From the NCBI RefSeq assembly GCF_002917925.1, contig NZ_PPFE01000004.1:62001-126000 (forward strand): 64,000 nt of DNA, written 5' to 3'. The notes under the pieces are model-generated. The model searched no databases and was not told the DNA's origin. It saw nothing but the letters and a program-made list of their open reading frames with translations. Shown here piece after piece: positions 20,068 to 50,317 of the stretch. Both the position numbers and the translations under genes were made by a program. Positions within the stretch are counted from its first letter, which is position 1. Each line of letters begins with the position of its first letter. Origin of the DNA: Roseovarius confluentis (lineage in GTDB: Bacteria > Pseudomonadota > Alphaproteobacteria > Rhodobacterales > Rhodobacteraceae).

Positions 20068-20174
20068 GACACGTTAGCAGGCACAAAAAAACAAGCCGCG
20101 ACGTGTCAGACCGGACCACCGGAAAAGCCGATTCTTGGCGTGTGCTGACCTTGGACGTACATGAGGTGGGCAGT

Positions 20175-21761
20175 ATGGTCAGGGGCGTTGAAATCCCTAT
20201 AGACGATCGTGCGTCGGCGGTAGAAATGGCCGAGACGATCTTTGGTGACGGTGTGCAGGTGGTCAGCGCCTCTTACACCGGTGACAAGGACTCTTCGGGG
20301 ATCTACACACAAGGCAATTCGATCTCGCCGGGGGTAATGCCGTCGGACACCGGGGTGATGTTCTCGACCGGGGACCTGAATGGGTTCACCAATTCGACCT
20401 GGTGGTGGTCGAACGATTCCAATCAGTCCAGCGAGACATCGACCAGTTCCAACGGTCCCAACAACGACCTGATGTTCAATGCGGCGGCGGGGGCGCCCAC
20501 ATACGACGCCTCTTTCCTCGACGTCGATTTCATCCCGACCGGGGACGTGATGACGATGCAGTTCGTCTTTGCGTCGGAGGAATTTCCCGAGTACGCGACC
20601 GGCGCGTTCCAGGATTTCGTCGGTGTTTGGATCAATGGCACACAGGTTCCGCTGAGCGTGGGAGACGGGGATATCGACCCCAACAACCTGAACGCCGGGT
20701 CGAACGCGAACCTTTTCGTCGACAACACCTCGGACCAGTACAACACCGAGATGGACGGTTTCACAGTCACGATGACGCTGACGATCCCGGTCAATTCGGG
20801 CGACGTGAACTCGATCCGGATCGGGATCGCGGACGTCACGGACGCCAACTACGATTCGACGCTGATCATCGCGGGCGACAGCGTGCAGACGACGCTGGTG
20901 GCGCAGGATGATGTGTCGAACCTGTTTCCGACAGGCGCGAAGACGTTGGATGTCCTGGACAACGACGTCAACAACACCAGCGGCGCACTGACAATCACGC
21001 AGATCAACGGTCAGGACGTCGTCGCGGGCAGTACTGTTACGCTGGCCACGGGCCAGACGGTGCTGCTGAACGCGGACGGCACCATCACGGTCGTCGGGGA
21101 CGGCGACGTCGAGGAAGTCAATTTCACCTACACGGTCGAGAGCACGAACGGGCAGAGCGACACGGGCTTTGTCACGCTGAACTCGATCCCGTGTTTCGTG
21201 CGCGGGTCGCGTATTCTGTGCGAACGCGGCGAGGTGCAAGTCGAAGACCTGCGGGTGGGAGATCTGGTGGCGACACGAGACGACGGCCTGCAACCGCTGC
21301 GCTGGGTCGGCCACCGCGAGGTGGCGGGTGCCGGACCCTATGCACCGATCCGCATCTTGGCGGGCACGTTTGGCGATCATGGCGAACTTTGGCTGTCGCC
21401 GCTGCACCGGGTGCTGATCCGCGACAGCCTGGCCGAGCTGCTGTTCGGCGAGCGCGAGGTGCTGGTGGCGGCCAAGGACCTGGTCAACGACCGGAGCGTC
21501 CGGCGCATCGAGGTCGAGAGTGTGGATTACTTCCATCTGCTGTTCGACCGCCACCAAGTGATCGTGTCCGAAGGGTTGCCGACCGAGAGCTTCCTGCCCG
21601 GATCCCAGATCAAGAACAGTTTCGAGGCAGAGGTGCTGGAAGAAATTTGCACCCTTTTCCCCGAAATCAACCCGGAAACCGCCGAGGGGTACAGCCCTGC
21701 GGCACGACGGATACTGCGCGGCTACGAGGCGCAGATCCTGTCCAAGAAATGGGCGGCGTGA
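20175..21761 (+). CDS. choice-of-anchor L protein with C-terminal Hint domain
   Basis: A 528-residue protein without a classical signal peptide. The N-terminal part (about 1-240) matches the choice-of-anchor L pattern: GVEIPIDDRASAVEMAETIF, SYTGDKDSSGIYT, GVMFSTGD, FASEEFPEYATGAFQDFVGV. It is followed by a VCBS-like beta segment and then a Hint_2 domain from about residue 340. The Hint domain begins with CFVRGSRIL (candidate nucleophilic Cys), then GDLVATRDDG and SPLHRVLIRDS (block-B His). Such Hint domains cleave the peptide bond before the Cys. The ATG at 20175 with GAGGTG at good spacing was preferred to the GTG at 20103. The next gene starts 3 bp downstream. Confidence 0.82.
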   Translation: MVRGVEIPIDDRASAVEMAETIFGDGVQVVSASYTGDKDSSGIYTQGNSISPGVMPSDTGVMFSTGDLNGFTNSTWWWSNDSNQSSETSTSSNGPNNDLMFNAAAGAPTYDASFLDVDFIPTGDVMTMQFVFASEEFPEYATGAFQDFVGVWINGTQVPLSVGDGDIDPNNLNAGSNANLFVDNTSDQYNTEMDGFTVTMTLTIPVNSGDVNSIRIGIADVTDANYDSTLIIAGDSVQTTLVAQDDVSNLFPTGAKTLDVLDNDVNNTSGALTITQINGQDVVAGSTVTLATGQTVLLNADGTITVVGDGDVEEVNFTYTVESTNGQSDTGFVTLNSIPCFVRGSRILCERGEVQVEDLRVGDLVATRDDGLQPLRWVGHREVAGAGPYAPIRILAGTFGDHGELWLSPLHRVLIRDSLAELLFGEREVLVAAKDLVNDRSVRRIEVESVDYFHLLFDRHQVIVSEGLPTESFLPGSQIKNSFEAEVLEEICTLFPEINPETAEGYSPAARRILRGYEAQILSKKWAA

Positions 21762-21763
21762 CA

Positions 21764-22834
21764 ATGGGCTGGATCGGTCTGCGAGATCTCAATGACGGTT
21801 GGTTCAAACCGGACCCGCGGCTGACGGATACCGGCGCGGACCGGGTGTTGCACCGCGGCAGCCTGGTGGTCGAGACCCGCATCTCGGCCCAGATCCGGCC
21901 GCAGACATTGCTGGCGTTCCGTCGGACGTGGCCCATGCCCGGTTTGTTCACGATCCAGGCGTTGCCGCAGGGCGGGATCGTGCTGGTGAACGCGCAAGGC
22001 GACGATATTTGCCATGCGACCCTGCCGCTCAAGGGCGACGGGCGGTTGGACATCCTGCGGCTGACCTATTCGTGGGACAGCGCCGAAGGCTGGGCGCGGC
22101 TGACGCTGGAGCGGCCCGAGACTGACCAAGTGGAGAGTGTCGCGCTGAATGCCACCTTGCCGCTACCGGTGGACGATCTGAACGCCATCTTCGCGCATGG
22201 CTGCAATTTCGAGGTCGACGAGGAGGTCGTGTTCCTCGCGCTTTCGGACAAGATCGAGCCGGTGGGGCCATTGCCCGCACTGACATCGCAGGTGCCGATC
22301 ATGACCGATCGCGGGGAGCGCCCGGCGGGCGAGATCCGGCGCGGCGATGTCGTGGTGACGGACGATGGCCAGCGCGTGCCGGTGTTGCAGGTCGTCAAGC
22401 GGACTGTGCCCGCGCGCGGCAGTTTCCGGCCCATCCGCCTGCGGGCGCCCTATTTCAAGCTGACCAAGGACATCGTGGTCTCGCCGCAGCAGCGGCTTGT
22501 GATGCATGGCAGCGAGGTGGAGTACATGTTCGGCCGCGAGGCGGTGCTGGTGCCCGCGCGGCACCTGGTGAATGACCGCTCGGCGTTCAAGGCCAAGGGG
22601 CCGGACCTGGTGACCTATCACCACCTGCTGTTGCCGGGTCACGAAGCGGTGCTGGCGGCGGGATGTGCGCTGGAGAGCCTTTACATTGGCCGGATGCGCC
22701 GCAAGCCCGAGGCCATCGCGGCAAGTGTGCTGGCTACGTTCGACCGCAATCGTCTGCCGGAACACGCCAAGCCGGTCTGGCCGGTGCTGAAACCGTTCGA
22801 AGCGGTGACGCTGGCGACAAGCCGCGCGGCCTGA
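21764..22834 (+). CDS. Hint-like domain protein, probably inactive paralogue
   Basis: A 356-residue protein starting 2 bp after the previous stop, so the pair is cotranscribed. The N-terminal half is a beta-rich domain of unknown role. The C-terminal half aligns with the Hint domain of the upstream gene (PIMTDRGE, RRGDVVVTDDG, REAVLVPARHLVNDRS). However, the block-A Cys is missing (SQVPIMT where CFxxGS is expected), and the block-B His is replaced by Gln (SPQQRLVMH). It is therefore expected not to self-cleave. It may be a partner or regulator of the active protein, or a decaying duplicate. Confidence 0.75.
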   Translation: MGWIGLRDLNDGWFKPDPRLTDTGADRVLHRGSLVVETRISAQIRPQTLLAFRRTWPMPGLFTIQALPQGGIVLVNAQGDDICHATLPLKGDGRLDILRLTYSWDSAEGWARLTLERPETDQVESVALNATLPLPVDDLNAIFAHGCNFEVDEEVVFLALSDKIEPVGPLPALTSQVPIMTDRGERPAGEIRRGDVVVTDDGQRVPVLQVVKRTVPARGSFRPIRLRAPYFKLTKDIVVSPQQRLVMHGSEVEYMFGREAVLVPARHLVNDRSAFKAKGPDLVTYHHLLLPGHEAVLAAGCALESLYIGRMRRKPEAIAASVLATFDRNRLPEHAKPVWPVLKPFEAVTLATSRAA

Positions 22835-40644: not shown

Positions 40645-40737
40645 CTGTCTCTCCCGGGGTTTGAGGGGTGTCGGGACATAGATACGGGCCGTGGGGGGTG
40701 TCGGCAAGGGGAGGGTGTGGGTTTGAGGGGCGGCGCG

Positions 40738-40761
40738 CGTGGGTTATCACCCACCCTACAT
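40738..40761. repeat. intergenic palindromic repeat, copy 4
   Basis: GTGGGTTATCACCCAC then CCTACAT, in the gap between the Hint array and ybaB. Confidence 0.75.
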
Positions 40762-40804
40762 GGTGTCGGGGCGGGTGCGCGGCGAAGCCGCCCCTCTTTA
40801 GTGT

Positions 40805-41674
40805 TCAGGCCGCGTGCATTTCCGCAATGCACAGCCGATCCCGGATCGCCTGCGGCACCAGCCGTGCGGCGCTGATACGGGGATAGGCCATTTCGTTGAT
40901 TGTGCGGTCCTCGCCGTAGAGGTCGACATATTCGCGGTAGTTACTAAAACTCTGCCTTCCGACGTAGTCTATGAAGGTCTCGGCAGGGGCGCCATTGGCA
41001 AGGATGATGTCGTGGTTCTCGGTCTCGATATGGTAGTAGTTCAGACGGTTCGGCAGCTCGGCGGTCGGCACGAGGGTAATGGTCTCGCCGTTTACCAACG
41101 CGCCTGCAGTGATCACCAGCCCGTCAAGGATCATCCCATGATCTGCCGTTACTGTCAGGTCAGAGTATGGGACGCCATGTCCAAAGGCTCCGGCGTGGAT
41201 GCGGACTGCCGCCATCGCCCGTCCCGCAATGGCCGTCGGGCGCGAGACCACGCCGATCCAGCGGACGGATGTGGCGGTGCCCTTTGCGGTGATCAACATG
41301 TCGCCAACCTGAAGGTCTTGAACATGCACTTCGCCGGTTTCCGTCAAGATATTGGTGTCGGGAGCAAAACAGGCGCCGTCAAACGTGGCGCCGTTTGCGG
41401 AGAATGTCGCCGGAGGAGACACAGGTTCCTGATCCATGAAAACAACGACGAATTGTGGGTCGCTGGCGAAGGTAAACGCCGGCCAATCCACACCGTCGAT
41501 GGCAAACGTGCCAGCGTAAGTATAGTTGGCACCCAAAGTGGTGACCGTATCACCAGTTTCAAAAGACGTGTCGGCCTCGCCGTCGTCGAGCGTTTCGGTG
41601 AAAGGTCCTTGTGGTGGTCCAAGGTACGCGTTGTTCTGATACGCGACCGTGTATGTGTACGCAAAGGTTCCCAT
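40805..41674 (-). CDS. Hint-domain protein, array member 1
   Basis: 289 residues. The N-terminal domain (about 1-115, MGTFAYTYTVAYQNNAYLGP...) is unique in the array and beta-rich. The Hint_2 domain starts at Cys in GACFAPDTNILTETG, with GDMLITAKGTATSVRWIG, the block-B His in TVTADHGMILDG, and a block-F-like IETENHDIILANGAPAETF. The C-terminal splicing residues of inteins (His-Asn) are absent, so hedgehog-type cleavage before the Cys is expected rather than splicing. No signal peptide. This is the most divergent member (GRQSFSNYREYVDLYGEDRTINEMAYP) and the last in transcription order. Confidence 0.85.
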   Translation of the reverse strand: MGTFAYTYTVAYQNNAYLGPPQGPFTETLDDGEADTSFETGDTVTTLGANYTYAGTFAIDGVDWPAFTFASDPQFVVVFMDQEPVSPPATFSANGATFDGACFAPDTNILTETGEVHVQDLQVGDMLITAKGTATSVRWIGVVSRPTAIAGRAMAAVRIHAGAFGHGVPYSDLTVTADHGMILDGLVITAGALVNGETITLVPTAELPNRLNYYHIETENHDIILANGAPAETFIDYVGRQSFSNYREYVDLYGEDRTINEMAYPRISAARLVPQAIRDRLCIAEMHAA

Positions 41675-41799
41675 GATGTCCTGCCCCTCATTTATGCAAT
41701 CGATTAGGACCAGAGCCTATTTCGGACGCGCGCGCAACGGTTCTGTCAGGTCAGTCGTGCGCGCGCAGGAATGACAAAGGGCGTCGCTTTTGACTTGGC

Positions 41800-42711
41800 T
41801 TAGGCCTGCAGCACTGCATCAAGACCTTGCACCTGTCCACAGAGACCGAGCCGGGCCTTGATCGCCTGCGGCACCAGGCGCGCGGCGCTGATGCGGGGCA
41901 GGGGCATCTCGACGATGGTGCGGTCGTCGCCGTAGAGGTCGACATACTCGGCGTAGTTGTCGAAGGCCTGCCGCCCGGCATAGTCGATGAACGTCTCGGC
42001 GGGCGTGCCTTCGGCGAGGATCATGTCGTGGTTTTCGGTCTCGACGTGGTAGACGGTAAAGCTGTCGCCGAACTCTTCCAGCGGTACCCAGTCGATGGAC
42101 GTGCCGTTCACCAAAGCCCCTGCATTGATCAGCAAACCGTCGATCAAAAGCGCATGGTCGGCGGTCAAGGTAAGGTCGCGCGACGGCAGGCCATCTCCCA
42201 ACGCACCTTCTCGCACACGTACTGGCATCAAACGCTCCGGTGCGCCAAACAGTGTAGAGACTTTCTGCTGGCCAACCCATTTCACCACGGTCGTTGCTCC
42301 ACCCGAGGTCAAGACGGCGTCGCCAACTGTCAAATCTTCAACCGGTTTCGACCCATCCGGCGTCGCGATTGCCGTTCCTGTCAAAAAACAGATCAACAGG
42401 GTCTCTGCAGTGAACGCATTCACGTCGACAAAATCACCGGTTGAAAGCCCGCCCGCCCCAGGCGTCGGAAGGTAAACAACATAAAGGTCCGGATCAGAAG
42501 TGTTTTGGTTGACGGGAAGTTTGGTCCCGGCCAGTTCGAACGTTCCAACGTAGTCGAAAATGTTTTCGATCCAATCTTCGCCGATGTCCGCAATACCGTT
42601 CTCGGTCGACGCGGGCTCGGTTAATGTTCCTGAAGCGGTCGGGTGTACATTCAACACCTCGCCAGTTAAACTATTATAAATAAATAATGATTGGACTGTG
42701 TAGACGGCCAA
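41800..42711 (-). CDS. Hint-domain protein, array member 2
   Basis: 303 residues from a TTG start with AGGAG 9 nt upstream. The N-terminal domain (MAVYTVQSLFIYNSLTGEVL ... YVVYLPTPGAGG) is shared almost exactly with member 3. Hint: LICFLTGTAIATPDGSKPVEDL with the nucleophile candidate Cys, VLTSGGATTVVKWVGQQ, TLTADHALLIDGLLINAG, VETENHDMILAEGTPAETF. The C-terminal tail, KARLGLCGQVQGLDAVLQA, is unlike its neighbours. The 185-bp gap to member 3 has room for a promoter. Confidence 0.87.
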   Translation of the reverse strand: MAVYTVQSLFIYNSLTGEVLNVHPTASGTLTEPASTENGIADIGEDWIENIFDYVGTFELAGTKLPVNQNTSDPDLYVVYLPTPGAGGLSTGDFVDVNAFTAETLLICFLTGTAIATPDGSKPVEDLTVGDAVLTSGGATTVVKWVGQQKVSTLFGAPERLMPVRVREGALGDGLPSRDLTLTADHALLIDGLLINAGALVNGTSIDWVPLEEFGDSFTVYHVETENHDMILAEGTPAETFIDYAGRQAFDNYAEYVDLYGDDRTIVEMPLPRISAARLVPQAIKARLGLCGQVQGLDAVLQA

Positions 42712-42896
42712 AGGTCCTAGCTCCTAAGCTTTATTTTTCAATCTCGACGCAATTTATCTGGCGACCTGTCCCAGTCAATGAAATTCACCGGACTGCCGCT
42801 TGAAGTCTGCACCGGTCATGCTCACCGAAGGGTCGGGACGAGCGCAGATGAACCCAGAAGAGCCGGTCCTCGTGACTGGTGCCCAGCCTGCTTTGT
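42712..42896 (-). promoter_or_regulatory. leader/promoter region of Hint member 2
   Basis: 185 bp with the AGGAG site close to the gene. The first 33 bp or so (to about 42743) are shared with the much shorter leader of member 3 (43788-43819), after which the two differ. No gene is seen. Confidence 0.4.
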
Positions 42897-43787
42897 TCAA
42901 GCGACCTTCGTGACCGCAGCTGAAAGCCTCATCTTGATGTTGCCTGGCACCAGGCGCGCGGCGCTGATGCGGGGCAGGGGCATCTCGACGATGGTGCGGT
43001 CGTCGCCGTAGAGGTCGACATACTCGGCGTAGTTGTCGAAGGCCTGCCGCCCGACATAGTCGATGAACGTCTCGGCGGGCGTGCCTTCGGCGAGGATCAT
43101 GTCGTGGTTTTCGGTCTCAACGTGGTAGACGGTAAAGCTGTCGCCGAACTCTTCCAGCGGTACCCAGTCGATGGACGTGCCGTTCACCAAAGCCCCTGCA
43201 TTGATCAGCAAACCGTCGATCAAAAGACCATGGTCGGCGGTCAAGGTAAGGTCGCGCGACGGCAGGCCATCTCCCAACGCACCTTCTCGCACACGTACTG
43301 GCATCAAACGCTCCGGTGCGCCAAACAGCGTAGAGACTTTCTGCTGGCCAACCCATTTCACCACGGTCGTTGCTCCACCCGAGGTCAAGACGGCGTCGCC
43401 AACTGTCAAATCTTCAACCGGTTTCGACCCATCCGGCGTCGCGATTGCCGTTCCTGTCAAAAAACAGATCAGCAGGGTCTCTGCGGTGAACGCATTTACG
43501 TCGACAAAATCACCGGTTGAAAGCCCGCCCGCCCCAGGCGTCGGAAGGTAAACAACATAAATGTCCGGACCAGCAGTGCTTTGGTTGACGGGAAGTTTGG
43601 TCCCGGCCAGTTCGAACGTTCCAACGTAGTCGAAACCGTTATCGGTCCAATCTTCGCCGATGTCCGCAATACCGTTCTCGGTCGACGCGGGCTCGGTTAA
43701 TGTTCCTGGGGTGGTCGGGCGTACATTCAACACCTCGCCAGTTAAATTATTATAAACAAATCCTGATTGGAATGTGTAGACGGCCAA
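42897..43787 (-). CDS. Hint-domain protein, array member 3 (mosaic of members 2 and 4)
   Basis: 296 residues, TTG start with AGGAG 8 nt upstream. The N-terminal domain and most of the Hint domain are nearly identical to member 2 (LICFLTGTAIATPDG, TADHGLLIDGLL, LAEGTPAETF). The last 24 residues or so (ARLVPGNIKMRLSAAVTKVA) and the DNA of the 3' end are identical to member 4. A crossover somewhere in the conserved block 42945-43080 explains this. The gene sits only 32 bp from member 4. Confidence 0.87.
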   Translation of the reverse strand: MAVYTFQSGFVYNNLTGEVLNVRPTTPGTLTEPASTENGIADIGEDWTDNGFDYVGTFELAGTKLPVNQSTAGPDIYVVYLPTPGAGGLSTGDFVDVNAFTAETLLICFLTGTAIATPDGSKPVEDLTVGDAVLTSGGATTVVKWVGQQKVSTLFGAPERLMPVRVREGALGDGLPSRDLTLTADHGLLIDGLLINAGALVNGTSIDWVPLEEFGDSFTVYHVETENHDMILAEGTPAETFIDYVGRQAFDNYAEYVDLYGDDRTIVEMPLPRISAARLVPGNIKMRLSAAVTKVA

Positions 43788-43819
43788 AGGTCTAGCTCCT
43801 AAGTTTTATTTTTCAATGT

Positions 43820-44713
43820 TCAAGCGACCTTCGTGACCGCAGCTGAAAGCCTCATCTTGATGTTGCCTGGCACCAGGCGCGCGGCGCTGATGCGGGGCAG
43901 GGGCATCTCGTCGATGGTGCGGTCGTCGCCGTAGAGGTCGACATACTCGGCGTAGTTGTCGAAGGCCTGCCGCCCGACATAGTCGATGAACGTCTCGGCG
44001 GCGGCGCCATTGGCGAGGATCACGTCGTGGTTCTCGGTCTCCACGTGGTAGTAGGTGACGCTGTCGGGTAGATCCTTCATCGGGACCCAGTCGATGGTGG
44101 TGCCATTCACCAGTGCCGAGGCATTGATCACCACGCCATCAAGGATCATTCCGTGGTCGCCGGTGACCGTCAGGTCGGTGTGCGGGATGCCATCGCCGAA
44201 GGCATTGGCCCTTATGCGCACCGGCTGAACGCTTGTACCGGCAAAGAGCCGGCGAACCGTCTGACGCCCAATCCATTTCACAGCCACGATGTCGCCCTTG
44301 GCCGTGCGCAGATTGGCACCAGCCTGCAGATTTTCGACATAAGTTTCACCATCGGGCGTACTGATCAAACTGCCGGGCGCAAAGCAGTATGTGTAAGGTG
44401 TCGTATCATCGAAGGTCAGGGTGGAACCTTGCAAACTGCCGTCATTCGACAGTTGGTAGACGGGATACGGAGGGCCGACAACGCGCTGGACAATGGGATC
44501 GCCACTGGGCTGCGCTGTTCCGATGATTTCAACGTCTTGTCCGGACTCGGACCAAGACAGATCGCCGTCGACCGGGGTCTGGTTGTCGTCTGCGCCGTCA
44601 CGGTTGTCCGTGATCGTGTTGCTGACTGGTTGCGCTCCGGGATAGACGGTGCCGGTCGTCGGCGCCGTTTCGCCAAGGTAGTAAAAGAACGAATAGGTGG
44701 CTGTCGCGGGCAC
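43820..44713 (-). CDS. Hint-domain protein, array member 4
   Basis: 297 residues if started at GTG 44713, which has GGAG 6 nt upstream; the GTG at 44731 has no site. The N-terminal domain (MPATATYSFFYYLGE ... VYQLSNDGSLQGSTLTF) is unique. Hint: YCFAPGSLISTPDGETYVENL, LRTAKGDIVAVKWIGRQT, TVTGDHGMILDGVVINAS, VETENHDVILANGAAAETF. The tail is shared with member 3. No signal peptide. Confidence 0.85.
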   Translation of the reverse strand: MPATATYSFFYYLGETAPTTGTVYPGAQPVSNTITDNRDGADDNQTPVDGDLSWSESGQDVEIIGTAQPSGDPIVQRVVGPPYPVYQLSNDGSLQGSTLTFDDTTPYTYCFAPGSLISTPDGETYVENLQAGANLRTAKGDIVAVKWIGRQTVRRLFAGTSVQPVRIRANAFGDGIPHTDLTVTGDHGMILDGVVINASALVNGTTIDWVPMKDLPDSVTYYHVETENHDVILANGAAAETFIDYVGRQAFDNYAEYVDLYGDDRTIDEMPLPRISAARLVPGNIKMRLSAAVTKVA

Positions 44714-44917
44714 GGGGTACTCCGTTGTCACTAATTACAGGTCATCGGGTCTGTTTCTGCGTCGGGCGGGACACATGTTGCCGGCTGATCAGAGCCAAAC
44801 CCCTCGTTTAAATATATCGCGCATGTGACCGGGCTTTCGTCAATGCCAGAAACCTTCGATACACATGACTTTTGCATGTTTTCGCAGACCATTCCGCGAC
44901 ACGTGCCGGCTTCATCG

Positions 44918-45817
44918 TCAAGCGGCCTGCCTCGCTCTGCCATCCAGCCGCATCCGGATGCTTTGCGGCACCAGGCGCGCGGCGCTGATGCGGGGCAGGG
45001 GCATCTCGACGATGGTGCGGTCATCGCCGAAGAGGTCGACATACTCGGCGTAATTGTCGAAGGCCTGCCGCCCGACATAGTCGATGAACGTCTCGGCGGC
45101 GGCGCCATTGGCGAGGATCACGTCGTGGTTCTCGGTCTCCACGTGGTAGACGATGAAACTGTCGGGCAACTCGGACAGGGGTACCCAGTCAATCGTCGCG
45201 CCGTTCACCAGTGCACCAGCGTTGATCACGCATCCGTCAAGGATCATGCCATGCTCGGCGGTCGTGGTCAGGTCCGTATGGGGCAGGCCATCGCCCAAGG
45301 CACCGGCGCGGATGCGGACGGGTTGCATGTGATGGCCGTGGCTAAGCCGGTGCAAGGTCTGACGCCCGATCCATTTGACGCGCACCGTATCGCCGCTGGC
45401 GGTCAGAATTGGGTCACCGTTGCGAAGGTCTTCGACGGCTGTGCTGCCAACCGGCGTCGTGATCAACGTGCCTGCGGCAAAGCAGGTGGCCAAGGGCGTG
45501 GTGACAAGCGTCGGAGGGGGGTCGGAGGCATAGTTCGTGGGATACCCGGACGACGTTGTCGCGGCAGTGGGGGACACGATGGTATGTCCACCAGCGCCAA
45601 AATTGGGATTATCAAAAACCAGGAACAAATCACCGCCTTCGAAATAATGGCCGGCAAAAGTTACATTCGGGGCGCCGTCAATGAGGGGATCGCCCAAGTT
45701 CCAAAACCCGTCGTCGGTTGCCGAGCTGCCGTAAACCGTAGGGTTGTCGGTTACTACGACCCGCCCTCCGTCCCCGTGGTAGGAAATCAAGCTTTCGATG
45801 TAATAGTCACGTGCCAA
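44918..45817 (-). CDS. Hint-domain protein, array member 5
   Basis: 299 residues from TTG 45817 with GAGGGG 8 nt upstream. The N-terminal domain (MARDYYIESLISYHGDGGRV, then FAGHYFEGGDLFLVFDNPNF) is unique. Hint: TCFAAGTLITTPVGSTAVEDL, TASGDTVRVKWIGRQTLHRL, TTTAEHGMILDGCVINAG, VETENHDVILANGAAAETF, tail RMRLDGRARQAA. The roughly 200-bp gap to member 4 (44714-44917) shows no gene. Confidence 0.87.
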   Translation of the reverse strand: MARDYYIESLISYHGDGGRVVVTDNPTVYGSSATDDGFWNLGDPLIDGAPNVTFAGHYFEGGDLFLVFDNPNFGAGGHTIVSPTAATTSSGYPTNYASDPPPTLVTTPLATCFAAGTLITTPVGSTAVEDLRNGDPILTASGDTVRVKWIGRQTLHRLSHGHHMQPVRIRAGALGDGLPHTDLTTTAEHGMILDGCVINAGALVNGATIDWVPLSELPDSFIVYHVETENHDVILANGAAAETFIDYVGRQAFDNYAEYVDLFGDDRTIVEMPLPRISAARLVPQSIRMRLDGRARQAA

Positions 45818-45998
45818 AACAAATTCCCCTCATTAAAGTACAGTTCGATTGTTAAAGGCGCGCTTTGTTATTTCCAATACTATTTTGAATTTTTTCAATC
45901 ATTTGGATAAAGGGGGTGTCCGGTCGGGCACCTAGCATGGAGCGGGGCACAGATTTGCGACGGCCGGTACGCGGCACATCTCGCGTGACGCACAGGCC

Positions 45999-46952
45999 CT
46001 AGGAGGCCTGCGCGATGGGAAATGTCTGGGCATGGATGTTCAAACGGTCCCGTATGCTTTGCGGCACCAGGCGCGCGGCGCTGATGCGGGGCAGGGGCAT
46101 CTCGACGATGGTGCGGTCATCGCCAAAGAGGTCGACATACTCGGCGTAGTTGTCGAACTTCTGACGGCTGACATAATCGATGAACGTCTCAGCCGCTGCA
46201 CCATTGGCGACGATCACGTCATGCTCTTCCGTTTCGATATGGTAGTAGGTGACGCGGTCCGGCAGGTCCGTCATCGGAACCCAGTCGATGGTGGTGCCGT
46301 TCACCAGCGCCGAAGCATTGATCACCAAGCCATCAAGGATCATGCCGTGGTCGCCCGTGACGGTCAGGTCGTTGTGCGGCAGCCCGTCGCCCAAAGCGCC
46401 CGCTTTGATGCGCACAGGTGCGGCGGCCGCACCAGAGAAGAACGGCAAACGGGTCTGTCGTCCGATCCATTTGACCGGCACCGCGCGGCCCTTTGCCGTG
46501 GTCACAAGGTCGCCGGCGCACAGCGCTTCTACCGCGGTTTCTCCGTCAGGGGTGGCGATCAGCGTGCCCGCGGCAAAGCAGGTGGCAAAATCGTCCGTGG
46601 AGCGCGAGTCGTAGACGATCGGTTGCGGGAAATTGAAGTCCGACACAGAGAGATAGTCCGGAACAACGATCAGCACCTGAATGATGTTCGGATCCACAAA
46701 GCTGGCCGCACCTTGAACCAGGGCCAGTTCCATCGTGCCGCCTCCGACCATGTCCACGTTCAGGGTGCCCAGATATGGCAGTTGCTCGCCCGAGACCGTG
46801 GCGACGATTTCGTTCTCCGAAAAGAACATGTCGCCCGCACCATTCCCGTCGTCGAAGGTGAAGTTTTGCACCGTGGTCCCCTCGAAGAACGTGTCGGTGT
46901 TCGTGGTGTTCACCTGGTAGGACGCGAAGCCTGAAATCTCATAAGTTGCCAT
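45999..46952 (-). CDS. Hint-domain protein, array member 6
   Basis: 317 residues, ATG start with an AAGG-type site. The N-terminal domain (MATYEISGFASYQVNTTNTD ... QVLIVVPDYLSVSDFNF) is unique. Hint: TCFAAGTLIATPDGETAVEAL, VTTAKGRAVPVKWIGRQT, TVTGDHGMILDGLVINAS, IETEEHDVIVANGAAAETF, tail RDRLNIHAQTFPIAQAS. It is the first gene of the array in transcription order; gaps between members (32 to over 200 bp) leave it open whether they form one transcript. Confidence 0.87.
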   Translation of the reverse strand: MATYEISGFASYQVNTTNTDTFFEGTTVQNFTFDDGNGAGDMFFSENEIVATVSGEQLPYLGTLNVDMVGGGTMELALVQGAASFVDPNIIQVLIVVPDYLSVSDFNFPQPIVYDSRSTDDFATCFAAGTLIATPDGETAVEALCAGDLVTTAKGRAVPVKWIGRQTRLPFFSGAAAAPVRIKAGALGDGLPHNDLTVTGDHGMILDGLVINASALVNGTTIDWVPMTDLPDRVTYYHIETEEHDVIVANGAAAETFIDYVSRQKFDNYAEYVDLFGDDRTIVEMPLPRISAARLVPQSIRDRLNIHAQTFPIAQAS

Positions 46953-47237
46953 GTGGCGCCTTTTTTTTGCCTGGGGTCATCGAAACATTTTCGCGCAGAC
47001 CGGTTGAAATGGAATGCTTGCAAAGCTGATCGGCCAATGTCGACCGGCAAAACAAAAATACTTCGGAGAGGTGTGACTTCTGCAACTGACGATGCTGGGT
47101 CATGGGCAAAGCCTGGTGGTCCGTTAGCCCCGAAAAGACGCGTTCCAGTGGGGCGTCCCAACGGTGTCCCGCCAAGCCTGGAGCGGTGGCGGGACCCCTT
47201 GGCGCAGAGGCGGCCGTCGCATGATCGTCTAGGCATA
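46953..47237 (-). promoter_or_regulatory. upstream region of the Hint array
   Basis: About 285 bp between member 6 and the acnA terminator. It contains a hairpin GTCCCGCC (47166-47173) / GGCGGGAC (47188-47195) and an eight-T tract (plus strand, 46962-46969) close to the start codon. No convincing gene; the promoter for the array is presumably here. Confidence 0.35.
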
Positions 47238-47275
47238 CAAAAAGGCCCCCGGATCAAGCTTCGGGGGCCTTTCTG
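47238..47275 (-). terminator. rho-independent terminator of acnA
   Basis: AGGCCCCCG (47243-47251) pairs with CGGGGGCCT (47262-47270), followed on the minus strand by TTTTTGTATG. It starts about 35 bp after the acnA stop. Confidence 0.85.
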
Positions 47276-47306
47276 CGATGTGGTTAGATGCGGACCGGAG
47301 GGGGCG

Positions 47307-50096
<2,790 letters not shown>

Positions 50097-50317
50097 TGGT
50101 GGATATCCTTTCACGTATGAAGGCAGGATTGTCTGGCTTGCTTCTGACCCAAACCTGAGAGTCGTTCAAGAGGGGTTTGGCGTTTATTGTATACTATTGC
50201 ACACAATTTGTGAATGTTACAGTTTTCACGCGACTCTCTCGAAACCTTGATTGGCAGTTTCATGCCGTGATGAATACTCAGAAGCGACGTCACGAACAAA
50301 CAGGTAGAGCGCCAGGC

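Follow-up and report, generated by a model that had tools for sequence, protein, structure and literature searches.

Gene organization

Six consecutive open reading frames on the minus strand, encoding proteins of 289–317 residues, occupy positions 40805–46952 of the window (the whole stretch of 64 000 nucleotides of Roseovarius confluentis DNA that was analysed), between acnA and ybaB–recR. An earlier note on this DNA had described six neighbouring same-strand Hint genes, and they are present at exactly these positions. Each gene encodes an N-terminal domain (N-domain), a Hint_2 domain starting at a Cys residue (Cys1) and a conserved tail. The N-domain comprises residues 1–101 in gene 1 (40805–41674; Hint_2 from Cys102), 1–107 in gene 2 (41800–42711; TTG start, Cys108), 1–111 in gene 5 (44918–45817; TTG start, Cys112) and 1–124 in gene 6 (45999–46952), in which Hint_2 extends from Cys125 to Thr256. 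Gene 3 (42897–43787; TTG start) resembles gene 2 save for its last 18 codons, which at the protein level are those of gene 4. Gene 4 (43820–44731; GTG start) has a distinct type of N-domain, with Hint_2 from Cys116. Genes 2–5 (41800–45817, minus strand) thus all start with TTG or GTG, and none has an in-frame ATG ahead of the Hint part. The intergenic gaps within the array are 32–186 bp. A spacer (46953–47306, minus strand) separates gene 6 from the conserved upstream neighbour acnA (47307–50114, minus strand), which encodes aconitase; over 354 columns it shares 89% identity with a Mameliella alba locus (L024). An NCBIfam search of the array proteins gave no match above any cut-off, and an Rfam search across 40700–47400 gave none at E ≤ 0.1. 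A promoter scan returned seven sites against 2.3 expected, several of them intragenic, and was set aside.

Hint domain: family, fold and catalytic residues

All six proteins matched the Hint_2 family (PF13403) with E values of 4.4e-32 to 4.7e-38 and scores of 111.9–131.3 bits, the curated cut-off being 28.4 bits. Two array proteins were modelled, and both predicted models have the HINT fold with a Cys at intein position 1. In structure searches with the full-length models the matches listed all fall on the Hint part. Against viral structures, the top matches of the gene 6 model were Hint proteins of giant viruses (several from Cafeteria roenbergensis virus, and Satyrvirus); these alignments span 230–300 columns and suggest that beta-rich parts precede the Hint there too.

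In the alignment of the six proteins the catalytic Cys and the block-B TxxH (TADH, TGDH or TAEH) are present throughout. The motif given in the earlier note holds to this extent, although the full CFxxGT is found in only four of the six (gene 4 has CFAPGS and gene 1 CFAPDT). Its description of the Hint domains as nearly identical was too strong: pairwise identity is 54–94%, with a mean of 66%. The array Hint is shorter than the canonical Hint_2 by a gap between blocks. It closes with a shared G-x-x-AETFIDY, which is followed by a conserved and confidently modelled tail of about 50–60 residues containing PRISAARLVP. The C-terminal splice residues of inteins are absent, as had been noted: the His-Asn position is occupied by Glu-Thr and none of the six has a His-Asn end. 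In the gene 6 model, Thr256 superposes on Asn145 of MchDnaB-1. Among 339 partly redundant Hint regions, position 1 is Cys in 334 and Ser in five, [ST]xxH is present in 335 and the His-Asn pattern in none. The residues preceding Cys1 are mostly Thr, Pro or hydrophobic in 298 distinct ends, with Tyr or Phe at position −3 in 48% and Tyr, Val, Thr or Phe at position −1 in 63%. Since the array Hints retain Cys1 and TxxH but have lost the residues that end an intein, the predicted chemistry of the array proteins is N-terminal self-cleavage of the hedgehog/BIL kind, without splicing.

N-terminal domains

Genes 2 and 3 share an N-domain (87% identity). By profile comparison, in which a reversed-profile control gave at most 1.6%, the N-domains of genes 6, 1 and 5 belong to one family (97.5% for genes 6 and 1, 94.3% for genes 6 and 5, and 84.1% for genes 5 and 1). 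The domain of genes 2 and 3, for which the profile is thin (genes 2, 3 and one database copy), is linked to them through gene 5 (86.1%) and through an intermediate cluster (95.3%); its direct comparison with genes 6 and 1 is weak (13.4 and 17.7%). The N-domain of gene 4 gave 1.0–5.7% against the other array N-domains and has a single link to them, by way of an intermediate cluster (86.7%). Single linkage at phmmer E < 1e-3 places 282 of the N-domains shorter than 260 residues in one group. By the profile comparison the N-domains of genes 1, 2/3, 5 and 6 look like one divergent family, with that of gene 4 apart. The earlier note had counted five different N-domains; the comparison does not support five unrelated ones.

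Within 11 arrays the mean identity of the N-domains is 24–33% and that of the Hint regions 57–79%, which bears out the description of a conserved processing part with a varying payload. No array N-terminus resembles a signal peptide by eye, in agreement with the earlier note.

Passenger composition and proposed export

The 326 N-domains of 60–259 residues contain 0.55% Lys, 0.16% Cys and 8.5% Asp, with a median pI of 4.05; 287 of them are free of Cys and 201 free of Lys. The composition shifts at Cys1, the Hint and tail having 1.6% Lys, 7.1% Arg and a pI of 5.1. The RTX parts of three RTX–Hint proteins in the same genome are similar to the N-domains (0.97% Lys and no Cys), unlike four cytosolic controls (5.7% Lys, pI 4.9).

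Related arrays carry unrelated payloads, which supports the swapping of payloads proposed earlier. In Nioella (L083 and L096) both an M10 serralysin-RTX protein and a lamin-tail domain are joined to the array-type Hint and tail. Serralysin-RTX proteins normally end at the M10/RTX C-terminal region; in the Nioella member the Hint follows directly after that region. The protease gene is uninterrupted in one locus (L083:2536–4830) and has an in-frame stop in the other (L096:9764–12058).

RTX repeats (PF00353) were not found by Pfam in the six array proteins; they are present in three other Hint_2 proteins of the genome. The genome has three PrtD-type ABC genes above the cut-off, each with a nearby HlyD gene, all away from the array. 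No exporter gene was found beside the array, and tblastn searches of the available flanks of relatives with two ABC/HlyD pairs gave no HlyD and only partial ABC matches of 31–40%. A comparison of the array tail with 12 canonical Hint_2 tails, those of the RTX–Hint proteins included, detected no relation (0.4%) and so gives no support for a common export signal. The case for type I export rests on the composition, on the RTX–Hint and serralysin–Hint relatives and on the genome's exporters.

Recombination within the array

An alignment of genes 2 and 3 that takes in 30 bp of upstream sequence has 96.9% identity over 873 columns. At its 3′ end, however, gene 3 departs from gene 2: its final 18 codons agree with gene 4 in 18 of 18 residues and 12 of 12 fourfold-degenerate sites, compared with nine of 17 residues and two of six such sites for gene 2. 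That gene 3 ends as gene 4 does points to unequal exchange through the 3′ part that the genes have in common.

Gene 6 was compared with the leading gene of the Mameliella alba array (L024:8001–8960). Identical residues number 116 of 124 in codons 1–124, 88 of 96 in codons 125–220 and 55 of 92 in codons 221–312; for the fourfold sites the values are 57/61, 51/60 and 10/23, respectively. For acnA of the same two genomes, 775 of 920 residues and 288 of 438 fourfold sites are identical. Codons 1–220 of gene 6 differ from the tail (Fisher, 4e-6) and from acnA (1e-7), and identity drops from 88–97% to 70, then 68 and finally 58% towards the end of the gene. The tail of gene 6 is nearer to its own neighbours (72 of 89 residues with gene 5 and 72 of 90 with gene 4; 65–68% at fourfold sites). 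The Mameliella tail matches one of its own neighbours in 70 of 92 residues, and its identity with neighbours at fourfold sites is only 34–62%, so homogenization there is weak. By these identities gene 6 is a mosaic, Mameliella-like in codons 1–220 and like its own neighbours in the tail. The pattern suggests replacement of one half, the other having been either shared in the recent past or held under unusual constraint.

Mosaicism of this type is not the rule in the sequences compared. Among eight pairs with N-domain identity of at least 80%, two of which are paralogues within one genome, the Hint is clearly lower in two (94/75 and 92/75) and agrees within eight points in the other six. The converse is seen in L024:14395 and L047:11251 (N-domain 47%, Hint 85%). 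Judged from these alignments, genes of the array have recombined in their front parts independently of their back parts.

Arrays and acnA in relatives

The best 80 of 431 relatives from named genomes were assigned to 76 loci, mostly in Rhodobacteraceae, with some in Halomonas, Salinicola and others. Array size was counted in these related genomes. Together with the window they make 77 loci, of which 19 have co-oriented runs of at least two Hint genes, 14 of at least three and 11 of at least four. Among these best 80 of 431 the longest run has 12 Hint genes (Nioella, L025; 13 open reading frames including one partial by another listing). A 428-residue protein of Nioella ostreopsis (L075:454–1740) contains Hint_2 three times over and looks like the product of a fusion inside an array.

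In 15 of the 76 loci (best 80 of 431) the first Hint open reading frame is preceded by a co-oriented acnA at a distance of 18 bp to 1.3 kb. Runs of at least two genes occur in ten of 16 acnA-linked loci (window included) and nine of 61 others (Fisher, 0.0003), a comparison within the best 80 of 431 in which the loci, coming from related genera, are not independent and acnA may be missed where flanks are short. In genomes searched for the array subfamily, acnA followed on the same strand by the first subfamily gene, at an estimated 0.7 kb or less, was found in seven of 11 other genomes with subfamily genes (G127, G133, G135, G162, G189, G216 and G249). The 11 genomes and the 76 loci may have species in common. 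The remaining four (G063, G068, G141 and G169) lack the link, although the G141 contig stops 2.3 kb past acnA. The ybaB side is not conserved: in the 11 genomes ybaB is close to neither acnA nor any listed Hint gene on the same contig, with the one exception of G135, in which about 13 kb separate it from a second Hint run of two genes (contig C23).

Distribution of Hint_2 and the array subfamily

The domain set is not unusual as such, contrary to the earlier note: the R. confluentis genome has 23 Hint_2 matches and each of 35 genus mates searched has 6–20. The same search gave no match in 24 genomes of other families. Of 241 genomes sampled across the class, the R. confluentis genome among them, 12 gave a match, ten of them above the cut-off. 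The array subfamily itself is rarer: it was found in its own genome and one of 39 other genomes of the genus (E ≤ 1e-40), and in 11 of 198 genomes of the family, its own included (threshold 1e-45). The array contig carries two further array-type genes, each standing alone (C20:41353 and C20:343384).

Within the window, two Hint_2 matches lie outside the array (20103–22834, plus strand). The first is a protein of 552 residues that has CFVRGS together with a Big_9-like part; the protein directly after it has a Hint in which SQVPIM replaces the Cys motif and SPQQR the one with the block-B His. Three further Hint_2 proteins of the genome (L021:6991–7488, L022:7587–8153 and L023:7471–8133) have 165–220 residues and almost no N-terminal part; with no Cys at the start of the Hint, they are apparently Hint-only and inactive.

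Array-type Hint genes are also present in the Gammaproteobacteria Halomonas and Salinicola (L063, L064, L085, L093 and L097). Four of these five loci have their own N-domain cluster, shared with Roseovarius L051, and transfer of such genes between classes is possible. Gene 5 had no tblastn match in 50 697 phage records, and a plasmid DNA search with gene 6 and the spacer gave two partial matches, both in Antarctobacter.

In the available text of one study, Hint_2, together with RTX, is over-represented in fast-responding marine Rhodobacteraceae (PMC12487129). The literature searched gave no function for Hint_2, and its titles and abstract openings, covering part of the listings and few subscription papers, did not mention tandem Hint_2 arrays.

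Interpretation

About half of our confidence goes to the reading that the array encodes exported, self-processed exoproteins with recombining passengers. Each gene would specify a precursor consisting of one small acidic beta-rich passenger, the Hint_2 domain and the conserved tail of about 50–60 residues. Cys1 of the Hint, aided by TxxH, would carry out an N-to-S acyl shift. Since there is neither an Asn nor a +1 nucleophile, splicing would not follow; the thioester would be resolved by water or another nucleophile, which would free the passenger at its own C-terminus. We infer export as well as cleavage, the route perhaps being type I secretion as for the RTX and serralysin relatives, and the passenger would act extracellularly. 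Members may recombine in the shared 3′ half, with neighbours exchanging ends and the array growing, and by way of that half the passenger part may move between genomes at the acnA site.

The same precursor could be used differently. The Hint might be a cytoplasmic cap, an intracellular cut before Cys1 baring an export signal at the passenger's C-terminus, with self-cleavage thereby gating secretion. The serralysin-RTX member, with its Hint directly behind the M10/RTX C-terminal region, and the mostly Thr, Pro and hydrophobic residues ahead of Cys1 are consistent with this, but extracellular cleavage fits the same facts and the small N-domains have no recognized signal; we regard a cap as rather unlikely. 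Alternatively, the thioester might be passed to an external nucleophile as in hedgehog proteins, fixing the passengers to a surface amine, glycan or lipid, with the tail acting like the adduct-recognition region of Hog. Loss of the splice residues with Cys1 and TxxH intact would suit such ligation, and the conserved, confidently modelled tail sits where Hog proteins carry an SRR/ARR in the available text of PMC2362128. Passengers almost free of Lys and Cys would moreover escape self-ligation, yet this poverty is equally typical of exported acidic proteins, and the Hog model (PF01079) is unmatched in all six at E ≤ 1. We judge ligation rather unlikely.

An array without special function would be a cluster of ordinary paralogues, the tandem duplicates and mosaics being by-products of a fast-evolving family and some Hints perhaps inactive. 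The many Hint_2 copies in all 35 genus mates, the degenerate Hints elsewhere in the genome and the sporadic subfamily (one of 39 other genus genomes and ten of 197 other family genomes) agree with this. Intact Cys1 and TxxH in all six and in nearly all 339 Hint regions, an acnA address that recurs across many genera and a front half of gene 6 nearly unchanged in another genome make it improbable. An interbacterial toxin array, with N-domains as effectors that the Hint sets free in the manner of polymorphic toxin systems, had also been suggested and found no support. Pretoxin HINT modules do exist (PF07591, matched below the cut-off by one of ten related proteins) and the payloads vary, but they lie on the N-terminal rather than the C-terminal side of the Hint, the 32–186 bp gaps are too small for immunity genes, PADLOC matched none of the six, no Pfam toxin family was found in them and one beta-rich N-domain family dominates; we consider this very improbable.

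The exoprotein reading remains the one preferred. A bolder version, which we hold to be doubtful, would have the near Lys- and Cys-free passengers exported and attached covalently to the surface or matrix via the Hint thioester, with recombination in the 3′ half and movement at the acnA site reshuffling the display: a bacterial counterpart of hedgehog processing and a self-loading combinatorial surface display. Because the arrays combine a single cleavage module with a single chromosomal address and passengers that can be exchanged, they allow cleavage, export and passenger function to be tested separately. If active, the Hint would also offer a thioester-forming module of natural origin, with which proteins could be released or tagged without splicing.

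Comparison with known systems

The array proteins belong to the HINT superfamily by fold and by the catalytic Cys at position 1, as found in both models. They are not inteins, which have a C-terminal His-Asn, a Cys, Ser or Thr at +1 and a C-extein; the array has Glu-Thr. The structure 2lwy we take to be a type A BIL. In the available text of PMC4031507, type A BILs carry a C-terminal His-Asn, and type B BILs have an N-terminal Cys and no similarity to intein block G. The His-Asn of type A is missing from the array proteins, which agree with this definition of type B in having no similarity to block G and in their N-terminal Cys; in contrast to BILs, only a short tail follows the Hint. With respect to hedgehog Hog, weak sub-cut-off matches to its model occur only in other Hint_2 proteins of the genome. 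To our knowledge, cholesterol transfer as in Hog is not known, and is not expected, in bacteria. Polymorphic toxin/CDI PT-HINT systems have a toxin domain after the HINT and an immunity gene, neither of which was found here, and PF07591 was unmatched in the six. Type I substrates of the RTX/serralysin kind are like the array in passenger composition and, in Nioella, as a passenger on the array-type Hint; they differ in having RTX repeats, the array proteins having none and ending in the Hint tail. Like other Hint_2 proteins, several of which have RTX repeats in this genome, the array proteins place a C-terminal Hint behind exported-looking N-terminal parts, and they differ from these in a shorter Hint, a tail type of their own and tandem arrays beside acnA.
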